Part shown: positions 1,723-9,100 of the stretch, piece by piece | How positions within the stretch are numbered: position 1 is the stretch's first letter | Layout: each line of letters starts with the position of its first letter | Source of the DNA: Bacteroidaceae bacterium | Lineage (GTDB): Bacteria > Bacteroidota > Bacteroidia > Bacteroidales > Bacteroidaceae | Reading direction: 5' to 3' | DNA length: 49,657 nucleotides | NCBI GenBank assembly: GCA_024682035.1 | Contig: JAIKZS010000012.1 | Coordinates: 1 to 49,657 of the forward strand | Translations under genes and position numbers: made by a program | The notes under the pieces: generated by a model | Seen by the model: only the letters and a program-made list of their open reading frames with translations | Database searches by the model: none | What the model was told of the DNA's origin: nothing

Positions 1723-3501
1723 ATGAAGATAATCAGACTGGTTTGTATAGTATTGACTTTGTCGTTGCTTAGCAGTGGGTGGTCAACGGTGGATGGTCAG
1801 CATCCTGAGCGAGACTCTAATTCGCTCGGTGTGGCTTTGCCGAATGACGACGAAGCTGGAAGTGATCAATCGTCAGATGATCGGAGGTACAATTATTATT
1901 TCCATGAGGCTACTCGTTTGCGCATACAGAAAAAGTATGATGCTTCTTATGATATGTTGCAACATTGTCTGGCCATTCGTCCGCATTCGCCTTCTGCTCT
2001 TTACGAACTTGCACAATATTACATTGTGCTGAAACATAATGAAAAGGGTACTGCTATCATGGCTGAGGCCGTCAAGAATGACCCCAATAACTATTGGTAT
2101 GCGCAAGGCCTGGCCAATCTTTATGTGCAGCAAAACAGACTGGATGAGGCTGCTGCGTTGCTGGAGGATATGGATCAGCGGTTCCCTCAAAAGATTGATG
2201 TGATGTATAGTTTGCTGCAGGTGTATAGTCGTCAGGCTAACTATGATAAATCTATCGTGTTGCTCAATAAACTGGAGGTGCGCATTGGTAAAAACGAGCA
2301 GATCTCCATGCAGAAATTTGCCATTTACGACCAGCAGGGCAACGATGAAAAGGCCATGGACGAATTGAAGAGTCTGGCTGCAGAATTCCCTACCGATTAT
2401 CGCTATCAGGTCATATTGGGCGATGCCTATTTGCAGAAAGAAAAATACCAACAGGCTTTTGATGTTTATCAGAAGATTCTGAAAGCGGAACCGGATAATG
2501 CCATGGCGATGTATTCGTTGGCTGCTTACTATGAACAAACCGGACAGACGGAAAAGTACGACCAGCAATTGAACTCTGTCTTGCTGAACCGTAAGGTGGA
2601 TGCTGATACCAAGGAGGATGTGATGCGTCGTTTGATTATCCGTAACGAGAATAGTAAGAAAGACAGTACGATTGTCATTGATATTTTTGACCGTATCATG
2701 GAGCAAGAGCCTGATGAGGCGCAGTTGCCTATGTTGTATGCGCAATATCTCTATTCCAAGAATATGGTAGAGAAAGCCATACCCGTACTGAAACAGGTTT
2801 TGCAGATTGAACCTACCAACAACACGGCTCGCATGACTTTATTGGGCGAGGCGGTGAAGAAAGAAGATTACGATGAGGTGATTGACATTTGTCAGACGGG
2901 AACTCAGGCCGATCCTGAAATGCTGGAGTTCTATTATTACCTGGCCATCGGATACAACCAGCAACAACGAACCGATAGCGTTATCAGCGTTTGCAAGCGA
3001 GCATTGGAACATGTGACAGATGAGGGGGAAAAGAATATTATAAGCGATTTCTACGCAATGATGGGCGATGCTTATCATACTAAGAACCTGATGAAGGAAA
3101 CTTTCGAGGCTTACGATAAATCCTTGGAGTATAACTCCAACAATATCATGGCATTGAATAATTATGCCTATTATCTTTCCTTGGAGCGTCGTGATTTGGA
3201 TAAAGCAGAGGAAATGAGCTATAAAACGGTGAAGGCTGAGCCCAACAATGCTACTTACCTGGATACTTATGCTTGGATATTGTTCGAGAAGGCCAACTAC
3301 GAACAGGCTAAGATATACATTGACCTGGCTTTGAAGAACGAAGAGCAACTGAGTGCCGAGGTGTTGGAGCATTGTGGTGATATTTATTATCATACGGGTG
3401 ATGCTGAAAAGGCGTTGGAGTTTTGGCAAAAGGCCAAAGAAAATGGCAGTAAGTCTGCTACTATTGACCAGAAGATACGACAGAAAAAATATGTGAGATG
3501 A
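1723..3501 (+). CDS. Tetratricopeptide repeat (TPR) protein, exported
   Basis: Scaffold-type protein of 592 residues built almost wholly of TPR helices from about residue 60 to the end. Recurrent TPR signatures include 'PHSPSALYELAQYYI', 'PNNYWYAQGLANLYVQQNRL', 'PDNAMAMYSLAAYYEQTGQ' and 'NNIMALNNYAYYLS'. The N-terminus 'KIIRLVCIVLTLSLLSSG' looks like a Sec signal peptide, so it probably acts in the periplasm or at a membrane. I chose ATG 1723; a TTG nine bases earlier adds three residues and is less likely. Its stop overlaps the DUF4292 start, so the two are translationally coupled. With the lipoprotein and EnvC-like protein downstream it probably belongs to an envelope assembly module. The exact role is unknown. 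Confidence 0.85.
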   Translation: MKIIRLVCIVLTLSLLSSGWSTVDGQHPERDSNSLGVALPNDDEAGSDQSSDDRRYNYYFHEATRLRIQKKYDASYDMLQHCLAIRPHSPSALYELAQYYIVLKHNEKGTAIMAEAVKNDPNNYWYAQGLANLYVQQNRLDEAAALLEDMDQRFPQKIDVMYSLLQVYSRQANYDKSIVLLNKLEVRIGKNEQISMQKFAIYDQQGNDEKAMDELKSLAAEFPTDYRYQVILGDAYLQKEKYQQAFDVYQKILKAEPDNAMAMYSLAAYYEQTGQTEKYDQQLNSVLLNRKVDADTKEDVMRRLIIRNENSKKDSTIVIDIFDRIMEQEPDEAQLPMLYAQYLYSKNMVEKAIPVLKQVLQIEPTNNTARMTLLGEAVKKEDYDEVIDICQTGTQADPEMLEFYYYLAIGYNQQQRTDSVISVCKRALEHVTDEGEKNIISDFYAMMGDAYHTKNLMKETFEAYDKSLEYNSNNIMALNNYAYYLSLERRDLDKAEEMSYKTVKAEPNNATYLDTYAWILFEKANYEQAKIYIDLALKNEEQLSAEVLEHCGDIYYHTGDAEKALEFWQKAKENGSKSATIDQKIRQKKYVR

Positions 3502-4061: not shown

Positions 4062-5395
4062 AAAAATACTTCCTCATATTACTGCTCATTTGTGTGCCAG
4101 TGTTGCTGATGTCGCAAACCAACAAGCGCATCAAAGAACTGGAAACCAAGCGTTCTGACTTGCAGAAGCAGATAGCAGAAACTGAGGAGTTGTTGAAGAC
4201 TACCGACAAAAATGTGACGAGTCAGTACAATGGCTTGAATGCCTTGAACGGACAAATTGAGGAGCGACGCCGTTACATCGATACCATTAATAGCGATTTA
4301 TTGCAAGTAGATAGTGAATTGGTTTTCGTTGATCGTCAGTTGGATAGCTTGAAAATTAGTTTGGAGGAGAAAAAACGTCGCTATGAAGCTTCTCTGAAAT
4401 ATCTATATAAAAACCATAGTATCCAGGAAAAGCTGATGTTCATTTTCAGTGCTGAAACTCTTTCGCAAACCTACAATCGTTTGCGTTATGTGCGCGAATA
4501 TGCTACTTATCAGCGTTTGCAAGGGAAAGAGATTCTTCGCAAACAAGAGCAAATTTCTTTGAAACAAGATGAGTTGCAAAGTGTGAGGGATGAAAAGATT
4601 CGCTTACTGGCAGAGCGTGCGCAGGAAAGAAGAAAATTGGAAATTCAGGAACAAAAAGCACAGGCGGTCATCAAAAATTTGAGGTCTAAGCAAAAGGGCC
4701 TGCGAGATGAGATTTCTAAGAAACGTCGTGAAGCCAATCAATTGAACAACCAGATTGACAGACTCATTGCGATCGAAATAGAGAATGCTCGTAAACGTGC
4801 CGAAGAGGAGGCTCGCAAGGAGGCTGCGGCCAGGAAGAAGGCTGAAGATGAGGCTAAAGCTGCAGCTGGAACGAAGAAGACCGATGCTGTTGCTACCCAA
4901 CCGGCAGCACCCAAGCCAAAGACAACTACTGCACCCAAGAACGAGGTGTATGCTGTAAGCAAGGCTGATCGTGAACTCTCCACCAATTTTGTATCCAATC
5001 GGGGTAAATTACCTATGCCTATCACAACATCCTATATCATTGTGAGTCACTATGGTCAATACAATGTGGCGGGTCTTCGTAATGTTACCCTCGACAATAA
5101 AGGCATCGATATCCAGGGCAAACCTGGTGCAAAGGCACGTGCCATCTTCAATGGCAAGGTAGCAGCTGTATTCCAGCTCAATGGATTGTTCAACATCCTT
5201 GTACGCCATGGCTCCTACATTTCTGTCTATTGCAACCTTTCCAAGAGTGATGTCAAGCAAGGCGATGATGTAACGACCAAGCAAGTACTTGGCACCATCT
5301 ATAGCGATGCATCCGACAATAACCGTACTGTCCTTCACTTCCAGCTTCGCAAGGAAAAAGACAAACTCAATCCTGAGGTGTGGTTGAATAAATAA
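4058..5395 (+). CDS. EnvC-like murein hydrolase activator, coiled coil plus degenerate LytM (M23) domain
   Basis: 445 residues: a signal peptide ('KKYFLILLLICVPVLLMSQ'), long coiled coils (about 20-250), an Ala/Lys/Glu-rich linker with Pro/Thr (about 245-300) and a C-terminal LytM/peptidase M23 fold (about 320-445). In active M23 enzymes zinc is held by HxxxD and HxH, with a further His in 'YaHL'. Here the corresponding places read 'NKGIDI', 'YCNLS' and 'VLHFQL', so several zinc or catalytic histidines are missing. That matches EnvC, which activates amidases without cutting peptidoglycan itself. The likely role is therefore control of cell-wall hydrolases during division, acting in the periplasm. 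It overlaps DUF4292 by four bases. FtsX, the EnvC partner in E. coli, is encoded at 26187. Confidence 0.88.
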   Translation: MKKYFLILLLICVPVLLMSQTNKRIKELETKRSDLQKQIAETEELLKTTDKNVTSQYNGLNALNGQIEERRRYIDTINSDLLQVDSELVFVDRQLDSLKISLEEKKRRYEASLKYLYKNHSIQEKLMFIFSAETLSQTYNRLRYVREYATYQRLQGKEILRKQEQISLKQDELQSVRDEKIRLLAERAQERRKLEIQEQKAQAVIKNLRSKQKGLRDEISKKRREANQLNNQIDRLIAIEIENARKRAEEEARKEAAARKKAEDEAKAAAGTKKTDAVATQPAAPKPKTTTAPKNEVYAVSKADRELSTNFVSNRGKLPMPITTSYIIVSHYGQYNVAGLRNVTLDNKGIDIQGKPGAKARAIFNGKVAAVFQLNGLFNILVRHGSYISVYCNLSKSDVKQGDDVTTKQVLGTIYSDASDNNRTVLHFQLRKEKDKLNPEVWLNK

Positions 5396-5464
5396 CGCCA
5401 TCTTTGATAAATATCCCACTTTTGAGGTAATTTACAAAATGTCAATCGAGAAACACATTTTCCT

Positions 5465-5662
5465 TTGGTGGTACTTCTGGAAAAATAGACCACTTTAGAA
5501 GGATTGTCATGCAGGCTCTTTTCTCTTCGTAGTTTGCTCGTAGTAAAAGGGCGGTTTAGTAGTAGTAAAGAAGTGGTTTAGTCGGAGTAAACCGCCCTTT
5601 AGAACGTACCTGAACAAGCGCTGGCTGAGGTGGTAGTTTGGGTGGAAAAATAGACCACTTTA
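5465..5662. repeat. Direct repeats flanking an inverted repeat, non-coding
   Basis: Two copies of the 19-mer GGAAAAATAGACCACTTTA lie at 5479-5497 and 5644-5662, each preceded by GTGGTA, giving direct repeats of about 33 bases. A weaker third copy (12 of 14 bases of the core) is at 5409-5422. Between them is a perfect 13-base inverted repeat, AAAGGGCGGTTTA at 5546-5558 and TAAACCGCCCTTT at 5588-5600, whose loop holds a variant second copy of the arm (AAGTGGTTTAGT). No plausible gene is present; the 80-codon minus-strand frame across it is made of the repeats. It may be a dispersed intergenic repeat or an RNA hairpin downstream of the EnvC-like gene. Confidence 0.75.
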
Positions 5663-5684
5663 TTAGGTGATAGCACTTTTTTCG

Positions 5685-6007
5685 AAAAACATCCCGACAT
5701 TCCAACAAGTAGTTGTAATTAGTTGATATATTGTTTGTTAATGTGTCGGTATGTGGGAGTGCACATCCCGACAAGATACCGACATATACCGGCGTCAAAA
5801 ATCTGACTATATGCTATGCAATCGGTCGAATATCTATCATATTGGAATTAATATTTTCTTAAATCCTGTATAACGTCAAATATCGAGGTGAAAATATTGT
5901 CCCCTTCTGTCGGTATGTTGTCGGTATGTTGATGACCACATACCGACATGCTATCACGCTGTTATACAGTTAAATACATGGTCATGTCGGGATGTCGGGA
6001 TGTTTTT
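5685..6007. repeat. Mirror-symmetric array of an 11-base motif bounded by 16-base terminal inverted repeats (MITE-like)
   Basis: The ends are perfect 16-base inverted repeats, AAAAACATCCCGACAT at 5685-5700 and its complement at 5992-6007. Inside, the 11-mer TGTCGGKATGT occurs at 5744-5754, 5908-5918, 5919-5929, 5985-5995 and 5993-6003 (plus), and at 5689-5699, 5763-5773, 5774-5784 (10 of 11 bases), 5938-5948 and, degenerate, 5697-5707 (9 of 11; minus). Measured inward from each terminal copy, sites sit at identical offsets of 0, 8, 55, 74 and 85 with mirrored orientation, around a 123-base AT-rich centre without a gene. Such geometry suggests two matching protein-binding ends, as in a non-autonomous transposable element, or a multi-site regulatory structure upstream of the GH2 gene. 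Confidence 0.85.
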
Positions 6008-6089
6008 GCGAATTTTGTCTGTAATTATTTACCCTATACTTTTTTATAATTATTCTTGTCTGTTGCAGCTGTTTTCCATTAAATTTATT

Positions 6090-6097
6090 TATTTTTG
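6090..6097 (+). promoter_or_regulatory. Candidate -7 box for the GH2 lipoprotein gene
   Basis: TATTTTTG matches TAnnTTTG and lies 28 bases before the ATG, in the AT-rich stretch right of the symmetric repeat. The nearest TTG (6063-6065) is 24 bases upstream, slightly far for a -33 element. Confidence 0.45.
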
Positions 6098-6125
6098 CAC
6101 ATACGAATACTTATAATCTAAAGAT

Positions 6126-9100
6126 ATGAAAAACAATTTTTTGTATAAGGCATGGGCCGTGATGGCCTGTTCTGCTTTAGTGATGGCAGGGTGTGGAGGT
6201 GGACAACAGCCATCGCAAGAGGGTATGAACCGTAAGCCTGGTAATTATCCTGGCAATCCTGCTGAATGGTTCGCACCTACATTAGTTACCGACCTCAACT
6301 ATCGGAATGTGGCTCAACTTAAAGCTGCCTATGCTTCTTCGAGCATTGACTATAATTTAACGGCACAATTGGCTACTGATGGTATCTTGACCGATAAGAT
6401 GCCTGCTACTACCCAACTGTTTACCCAGCAAGGGGAGGTGCCACGCCACCAAAAAGAAATCATGTTTGACACCAATGATGTTACTTCATTTGCTGTGCAG
6501 GGAGGCGATATTTTCTTGCAGTTGGATATGGCCGACATGCAGGTTGATATTGATGAAATTGCCCTGCGAGGCAGGGTAACGCTGGACCCTTCTGCTACGA
6601 GAGGATATGTAGTAAAGACATTGGCATCGGTAGATGGCAATACTTGGGAGGAACTGGATGTGCAACAGGGCAATGGTTTCTTCGGCAATGAGAACCGTGG
6701 TGGTGGTTATCGTTATGAGATGAAGACGCCAACGGGGAAATCGCCCGTTAGATTCATGTATGATTACCAACCCAAACCTGCGCCTGCAGCTGCTACCCCC
6801 AATTATGGCAATGGCGGTCAAAGGATGGAAAACCGTACCATTGATTATGTCGTAAAACTTAACTCTGCTAAGGCTTATAGCCATTTCAAAATTGAAATGA
6901 AGATGCCGAGTGCCAAAAACTGGTCGTTCTCTTCTTGGAATTTTGCGAAGGCTGGTGAACCAGTGTCTGTGCTTCCATCTTATCGTTTCAACAGTGCTTG
7001 GATGAGTGCATCGGCTGGCAACGAATGGTTGATGGTGGATTTGGGTGCCGAGGCTCAATATGATAAGATGAATTTGCATTGGATCAACAAGGCTGTGAAG
7101 GGTGTGATAGAGGCATCTGACGATGCCAAGACCTGGAAGCAGGTTGCTGAATTGCCTGGAGGCGAAGCACAAAATGATGAGATTGACCTCGGCAAGACAG
7201 TGAAGAGCCGTTATGTGCGTTTGAACCTGACGGAAGCTGCAGGTGGTAAGCCTTATGTGCTGAGTGAACTGGAGGTAATGGGCAAGGGTGGTCTGACGGC
7301 TCAACCACAGGTGGCAGAGGTAACATGGACCAACCTGAATATTGATAATGATCAGGTACTGAACGGTCAGCGTTCTTTAGACGGAAGTGACTGGAAATTG
7401 CAACGTGCTTCAGAAGTGAACGCTACGGGCGAAGCAATTGCTATGTCTGGCTTTGACGATAAGACTTGGATTGCTGCTACGGTACCAGGCACCGTTTTGT
7501 CAAGCTATGTAAATATAGGTGCCGTTCCTGATCCGAATGTAGCCGACAATCAATTACAAGTGTCTGAGTCGTTCTTCTATTCAGATTTCTGGTACCGCCA
7601 TACCTTCAATGTAGATGCTTTGGCAGAACGCATGTTCTTGGATTTCAGTGGCATTAACTGGAAAGCCGAGATTTTCCTCAATGGCAAGCAAGTAGGGAAT
7701 ATCGATGGAGCTTTCATGCGTGGAAAGTTTGATGTAACAGGTGTGGTAAAGCAAGGCGAGAATGTGTTGGCCGTGAAGATCATCAAAAATGCGCATCCTG
7801 GTGTTATCAAGGAACAGACTGCTTGGTCGCCCGATTACAACGGTGGTGTGCTGGGTGCTGATAATCCAACCTTTCATGCTTCTATTGGCTGGGACTGGAT
7901 TCCTACTATCAGGGGACGTAATATTGGTATTTGGAACGATGTGTATCTTACTTATGCTGGGGCAGTTACCATAGAAAATCCGTTTGTGCAGACCGACTTG
8001 GCTTTGCCGGCTACCGATTGTGCCGATATCTTGGCCGAGGCTACCTTGAAAAACCATAGTGATAAAGCTGTTAAGGGTGTACTGAACTTTAATATGCAGG
8101 GCGATGGTTCTGGAGTAGCTGAGCAGATGGAGGTTGAGCTGGCTCCTGGCGAGGAGAAACTGGTGAAGTTGCCTTCTGCCCGTTTGGACAATCCAAAATT
8201 GTGGTGGCCTGTTGGTTATGGTGATCAGTATTTGTATGATTCTAAGTTTACTTTTACTGTTGATAATCGTGAGAGCGATGCCAAGACCTTCAAGACGGGT
8301 GTGCGTGAGCTGACCTTCGTTGATGAGCCATACGTACAAAGTGGTGGTATCTTGCGACCAAAAGAGCAGTTCAAGAATCCAGTGCGACTCACCGTATATA
8401 TAAATGGTAAGCGTGCCGTTGGCTTTGGTGGCAACTGGGGTATGGCAGAATCGAACTTGAATTATCGTGGTCGTGAATACGACGCAGCTGTGAAATATCA
8501 TGCCGATATGCACTTTACTATTATTCGCGACTGGGTGGGCATGATTGGTGATGAAGAATTTTATGAGGCATGCGATAAGTATGGTGTGCTGATTTGGCAG
8601 GACTTCTGGTTGGCTAATCCTGCCGATGGGCCTGATCCTTATTACGAAGAGATGTTCGTGGCCAATGCCCGCGATTATGTGAAACGCATTCGTAACCATG
8701 CTGCACTTGGCATCTATGTGGGTAGAAATGAGGGCAATCCACCTGCATCATTAGACGGACAGCTGCGTGGTTTGGTAGCAGAGTTGCATCCAGGTATGCG
8801 CTATATTTCTCATTCTGCCGATGGTGTGGTAAGTGGCGAGGGTCCTTATCGTGCGTTGGAGCCGATAGAGTATTTCCGTAATTATGGTCATGATCGTTTC
8901 CATAGTGAGCGAGGCATGCCAAATGTGATGACTTATGAGAGCATGAAGCAAGCCTTTGGCGAAGATCACTTAGAGCCTGTGAGCACCTTGGATACCCCTA
9001 ATCCGATGTATGGATTGCATGATTATGCCCTGGGTGGCAATAACGGTCCGTCGGCACAATCTACCCAAACATTCAATGACATGATTGCTAAAATGTTCGA

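Follow-up and report, generated by a model that had tools for sequence, protein, structure and literature searches.

Mirrored arrays of an 11-base site in a Bacteroidaceae genome resemble the replication-origin parts of VapE-type helicases

The origins of phage-inducible chromosomal islands (PICIs) are described by Fillol-Salom et al. (PMC6092414) as sets of iterons around an AT-richer centre together with a Rep-like helicase. In phage P4, the alpha protein is stated (PMC4234260) to bind the origin repeats via a C-terminal winged-helix domain. The element considered here is a 323-nt repeat array within a stretch of 49,657 bases (the window) that is part of contig C17 of a Bacteroidaceae genome (2.0 Mb, 74% complete, 174 contigs). 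It is probably a gene-less, dispersed copy of the replication-origin-like iteron array of a VapE helicase, similar to Rep of the Staphylococcus aureus pathogenicity islands (SaPI), that is encoded on contig C69 of the same genome. The array is read in this way because the array and VapE, as a pair, appear to have origin parts of the PICI and P4 type.

The element contains ten copies of the site TGTCGGKATGT, mirrored at offsets 0/8/55/74/85 from each end. Eight copies are exact (5689-, 5744+, 5763-, 5908+, 5919+, 5938-, 5985+, 5993+) and two imperfect (5774- at 10/11 and 5697- at 9/11 bases). Within the window, 9/11 sites with at most one mismatch fall inside the element, and 300 dinucleotide shuffles of the element gave a mean of 0.03 and a maximum of 1 site against the 9 observed; the ten copies in exact mirror symmetry reported in a preliminary description of this DNA were thus borne out. 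The two mirrored five-site sets surround a 123-bp centre, as iterons do in PICI origins. The centre had been described as AT-rich and non-coding: it indeed holds no gene, but it is merely mildly AT-rich, because its 66.7% AT compares with 61.9% for the whole element and 58.2% for the window.

The exact motif occurs 35 times in the host genome: in the window array (8), on contigs C18 (6), C69 (9), C92 (9) and C104 (2), and as an isolated match on C119 (1). The C69 and C92 arrays have the same layout as the window array, which is 64.5% identical over 355 bp to the inverted C69 array. The C18 array has one clear site fewer per half and 65 bp to the tandem pair. On C104 the two exact matches are the terminal sites, and the inner positions of the same layout hold AGTGGAGTGT-like sites. 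Dispersed copies, for which the preliminary description had proposed a search, were therefore found, both in the host genome (C18, C69, C92) and in another genome, G092. The terminal pair, as searched, is present in 4/158 genomes of the genus, the window's own included. Two of seven matches in a contig database, from Erysipelotrichia and Paenibacillus, were single-ended and were taken as chance. The window array had no match in phages or plasmids, nor its terminal pattern in IMG/VR.

On C69 and C104 and in genomes G027 and G092, an array precedes a single gene (~395 aa) by about 200 bp, so that the adjacent Rep/VapE-type helicase of PICI origins accompanies these gene-linked arrays; the window copy is solo. 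The C69 product is a 397-aa VapE-type helicase. The partner proteins carry the VapE-like domain PF05272, joined by DUF3874 (PF12990) in the three scanned. The only PDB sequence match at E <0.01, 7pds (titled PriRep1 with dsDNA and named after vapE), was also the best fold match, and P4 alpha (1ka8) was among the fold matches. PHROGs assigned VapE to helicase or primase families and, weakly, to clamp loaders. Four VapE places were found in the 74%-complete host assembly, none of them on C17. VapE relatives occur in 121/158 genomes of the genus and fall into a short (about 395 aa), a 402-aa and a long (about 700 aa) class; one long member (L099) matches a PrimPol model. A phage or plasmid origin was rejected on the lack of matches to the window array and on the relatives of the L089 VapE in such records (294 phage, 45 plasmid), all below 60% identity; exact peptide patterns of this protein had no match in IMG/VR. 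A defence-system reading of VapE was also dropped, as neither of the two short VapEs run against PADLOC matched a model convincingly (AriA, E 7e-4 to 8e-4). A complete PICI comprises an integrase, a regulator, pri-rep-ori and interference genes. Around the C69 and C104 units, inspection by eye of the short flanks (a few kb) suggested household genes; no integrase search was made there.

The geometry of the array is common to the short VapE class, and the motif is not. A scan by geometry only (an inverted pair with a tandem copy 10-12 bp further along and an outer copy 45-50 bp away) found at least one half-array beside 24/27 fetched genes of this class and none in two local shuffles of 642 kb of loci. 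The three genes missed were L058, where sites are visible by eye, L063 and L066; three partial class matches (G134 C47, G134 C42, G023 C64) lay outside the fetched gene set. The scan also found no half-array at any of the 5 genes of the 402-aa class or of the 16 distinct long-form loci; as far as these were read by eye, their repeats are laid out differently or are lacking. Nine genes (L060, L061, L064, L065, L087-L091) stand between two inverted half-arrays, in units spanning 1,409-1,451 bp (n=9), and these are the longer relatives with a gene between the same ends foreseen by the preliminary description. Ten genes of the C69/C104 type have both halves upstream (L002, L004, L024, L031, L056-L059, L084, L085), and a single half was detected at L083. 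After removal of 8/52 half-arrays as near-duplicate or cut, the remaining 44 could be aligned in register.

The words upstream of short VapE genes include TGTCGGTATGT, CACTCCAC, CACTTCAC, CTCTTCAC, GTCTTCAC, CCCTACAC, CCCTTCAC, ACCTTCAC, TCTTTCAC and ACCTACCT. The VapE genes read within one genome mostly differ in word, with four words in G000 and three each in G092, G027, G029 and G122; in G023, two of three VapE genes share ACCTTCAC. Among proteins with at least 85% ATPase identity, the C-terminal domain is 75-91% identical in same-motif pairs vs 43-59% in different-motif pairs, the proteins being related, hence the pairs not independent, and the motif labels assigned by hand. This set comprised 23/27 genes (L031, L063, L066 and L068 were omitted as near-duplicate and truncated, lacking upstream sequence, or without an assigned motif), reduced to 18 by removing five more with 90% or higher identity to a retained member. 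As far as can be judged from these sequences, the motif tracks the VapE C-terminal domain.

Among eight halves of one motif family, identity is 93% in the sites, 49% in the 36-bp gap and 30% in the 8-bp loop. Either the sites function where they stand, or new copies derive only from copies whose sites are intact. The gap contains an exact YAANNNNYTG, which we take to be half of the consensus of integration host factor (IHF), in 24/45 halves (shuffle mean 2.4, max 7), and 21 of these 24 matches begin within three adjacent positions. The pattern was picked after part of the halves had been inspected. In the other motif families, with the TGTCGG family left out and two previously inspected C104 halves included, it occupies positions 16-18 in 15/37 halves (shuffle mean 0.12, max 2). 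The earlier statement that the sequence between sites is not conserved holds for most of the gap and loop and fails for this positionally fixed IHF-like site. In the left half of the window array, the scan reported another, earlier exact match than the one listed in the table.

Table. Features of the array in the window
Feature	Position	Strand	Basis
Left outer A-rich box, directly outside terminal site	5674..5688		Outer consensus across arrays; alignment edges 14-15 bp outside arrays
Left terminal overlapping site pair (A 5689-5699, B 5697-5707)	5689..5707	-	Same overlapping pair in other arrays
IHF-like site TAATTAGTTG (YAANNNNYTG), left gap	5716..5725	+	Read from sequence; pattern enriched at fixed place in half-arrays of other motifs
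Site C, left half	5744..5754	+	Motif scan
Site D, left half; inverted to C, 8-bp spacer	5763..5773	-	Motif scan
Site E, left half; tandem with D, 11-bp period	5774..5784	-	Motif scan
Mildly AT-rich centre without gene; candidate melting region	5785..5907		Composition; role suggested by PICI origins
Site E, right half	5908..5918	+	Motif scan
Site D, right half	5919..5929	+	Motif scan
Site C, right half	5938..5948	-	Motif scan
IHF-like site, right gap, one mismatch to YAANNNNYTG	5967..5976	-	Pattern scan
Right terminal overlapping site pair (B 5985-5995, A 5993-6003)	5985..6003	+	Motif scan
Right outer A/T-rich box (TTTTGCGAATTTTGT)	6004..6018		Sequence; comparison with other arrays

The Pri-Rep-ori replicon of PICIs, both SaPI and Gram-negative, resembles the VapE units in its Rep-like helicase and in having the initiator adjoin the origin. 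It differs in that the units described here have a single gene, or are gene-less arrays dispersed in chromosomes, and show no primase gene. In addition, the PICI origin lies 3' to the gene, whereas the VapE array is upstream of or around it, and the fixed mirrored five-site halves, the IHF-like site and a motif that mostly differs from gene to gene are peculiar to the VapE arrays in this comparison. Phage P4 alpha shares the helicase fold and binds its origin repeats, according to the source cited above, with a C-terminal winged helix, as VapE may also do. It carries a fused primase, however, and is encoded by a phage-plasmid, whereas the VapE units have no primase, no phage genes seen adjoining and many gene-less copies. 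Among the matches listed in searches of an open-access library there was no description of these arrays, which is no proof of absence.

Solo arrays are also found in other genomes. In G092 the terminal pattern of the L089 VapE has 19 ends, which belong to a single unit with a gene and to 11 solo arrays measuring 153-307 bp. The figure of 11 is a lower bound, since a looser pattern adds ends (e.g. C3:95537-95754). G027 has three ends of this pattern, all in two solo arrays; none of its three VapE matches has an L089-type motif. In G122, a gene-bearing CCCTACAC unit is accompanied by four or more further places, both ends being present at two of these. In G029, an array linked to VapE is 87.7% identical over 431 bp to a solo array that precedes metK, and the flanks of the two differ. 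Among the 30 longest alignments of paralogous arrays with each other, 11 have one edge at 14-15 bp beyond the terminal sites; other pairs stay aligned into shared flanks. The M23 and L180 loci have an array in G092 and none in G027, the spacer DNA being too diverged for base-by-base alignment or an exact empty site. In the outer 16 bp, 12/13 solo arrays (L179-L191) pair one GAAAATTGCAAAAAAG-like (a-type) with one ATGCTCAAAAAAAG-like (b-type) box (p 0.005, post hoc), and the mirror is thus polar at its ends. At one locus shared by G092 (L181) and G027 (L190), the left halves are near-identical, the right halves differ mostly in spacers and the right flanks are 99% identical, perhaps by conversion of a half-array or through an assembly chimera.

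Mirrored ends, gene-bearing and gene-less forms and dispersed copies are properties of insertion sequences with multi-site ends (Tn7, Mu) and of miniature inverted-repeat transposable elements (MITEs). The terminal inverted repeats and dispersed copies of the present arrays agree with these. The window array could be a MITE-like non-autonomous element, the 1.4-kb VapE unit being autonomous and VapE, with or without a host nuclease or recombinase, moving the mirrored ends. The nine genes enclosed by inverted half-arrays, the single gene-bearing unit and many solos of G092 alongside the two G027 solos with no same-motif VapE among three matches, the recurrent alignment edge and the pairing of outer boxes all speak for it. 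Against it, 23 arrays showed no target-site duplication (mean longest flank repeat 5.7 vs 5.3 permuted, permuted max 6.3), a second test on 15 arrays found no excess, the gene lies outside the ends in ten cases, and no nuclease or transposase domain is named in VapE. No recent movement is seen either, as paralogous copies have diverged by at least about 12%. Such an element is thus considered rather unlikely. The plain transposase reading of the preliminary description was rejected, given that the sole gene of the full-length member is a PF05272/PF12990 helicase of the VapE/SaPI-Rep-like kind and no target duplication was found in the arrays tested.

That description also raised the possibility of a regulatory array for the neighbouring glycoside hydrolase family 2 (GH2) gene. 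The window array does end 122 bp before the GH2 start codon, many VapE genes have arrays upstream of themselves, and metK is preceded by an array in two species, all of which would suit control by VapE or another protein of this gene or of a regulon. However, 21 solo arrays lie between tandem (9), convergent (7) or divergent (4) genes, with 1 unclassified, and their neighbours are varied; these contexts come from a crude caller of open reading frames, the right neighbour of the C18 array may be a false frame, and the count omits further solo places, a G013 half-array and the L110 array. Solo arrays show no consistent gene context. With 7/20 classifiable arrays between convergent genes, GH2 regulation was rejected, and the absence of arrays at two G027 loci also speaks against regulation in general, which is very improbable. 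A hairpin or cruciform acting as single-stranded DNA or RNA has still less to commend it. The inverted C/D pair with its 8-nt loop and the long-range inversion recall REP/REPIN (repetitive extragenic palindromic) elements, which are short, dispersed intergenic inverted repeats. Unlike these, the arrays have a larger fixed site geometry and a helicase as partner gene; the variable K position of the C/D pair is unpaired in 4/8 halves, with no compensatory changes in the eight, and loops and gaps are fixed in length and free in sequence. No known RNA was matched in Rfam within 5300-6300 of the window.

In the window genome (L003/C92) and in G029 (L126), metK is preceded by an array; the motifs of the two arrays differ, and each agrees with that of a VapE in the genome concerned. 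The 560 bases before metK hold no array in G092 or G027. In L110 (G101), GGTTACA repeats that by eye form inverted blocks lie downstream of the M23 gene, a position occupied in the window genome by a TGTCGGKATGT array. The host genome has a second array type on contigs C24, C105 and C136 (L018 ~2709-3000, L019 ~2632-2930, L020 ~818-1021), in which TGTAATGT/TGTTATGT-like repeats with a period of 7-8 bp make up two inverted blocks, one on each side of a long AT palindrome. Reading by eye the open frames of at least 120 aa in these fetched stretches revealed no recognisable VapE gene, and a short CGCTAC-repeat array lies near the TGTTATGT array (L020 ~1255-1290). Genes of the 402-aa VapE class (L052, L092-L095) have small arrays 300-530 bp upstream of the start, with the words TTACAACC, CCTTCACC and CCTACACT, mirrored in at least some loci and missed by the geometry scan. 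Some of the ~700-aa genes L098-L101 have other upstream arrays, such as the direct repeat of L101 with a 22-23-bp period; none is evident at L100, and at L098 a frame resembling an HU-like protein by eye lies between the repeats and the VapE gene. CCTMGTTAGG / CCTCACGAGG palindromes and TTTACTACCGCTAAACC-type short repeats adjoin many arrays, as in the flanks of L004, L056, L085, L126, L105 and L065.

Among the readings of the preliminary description, a replication structure fits best, and a protein recognising a fixed geometry at two like ends is likely. For a gene-less, origin-like array of this kind, origin activity, helicase loading, melting and replication are proposed by analogy with PICIs and P4. 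A putative C-terminal winged helix of VapE would bind the 11-base sites, and an IHF/HU-type protein could bend the 36-bp gap so that the terminal pair meets the inner C/D/E sites. Each half, facing opposite to the other, would load one helicase ring, and melting would take place in the AT-richer centre, as suggested for the origins of phage-inducible islands. The spread of copies shows no sign of an ordinary target-duplicating transposase, and the sites persist as the spacers drift. VapE may act as a transposition-like agent in the spread or upkeep of solo arrays, which may otherwise depend on replication followed by recombination, or on decoy or defensive use.

A wider and more doubtful proposal is that these arrays belong to a new kind of interspersed "helicase-origin" repeat. 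Its full-length member would consist of one SaPI-Rep-like helicase gene flanked by mirrored origin halves, its short members would be origins without a gene, and the repeats would spread by replication from the array without a transposase. Lineages would switch iteron word and winged-helix domain together, and copies of different lineages would consequently ignore each other. The VapE/DUF3874 family, so widespread in the genus, gains a candidate partner and a testable DNA word outside phages and islands. The relation between motif and C-terminal domain would constitute a natural recognition code readable from sequence alone, and the solo arrays may be an instance of orphan replication origins, selfish or defensive, scattered over chromosomes.
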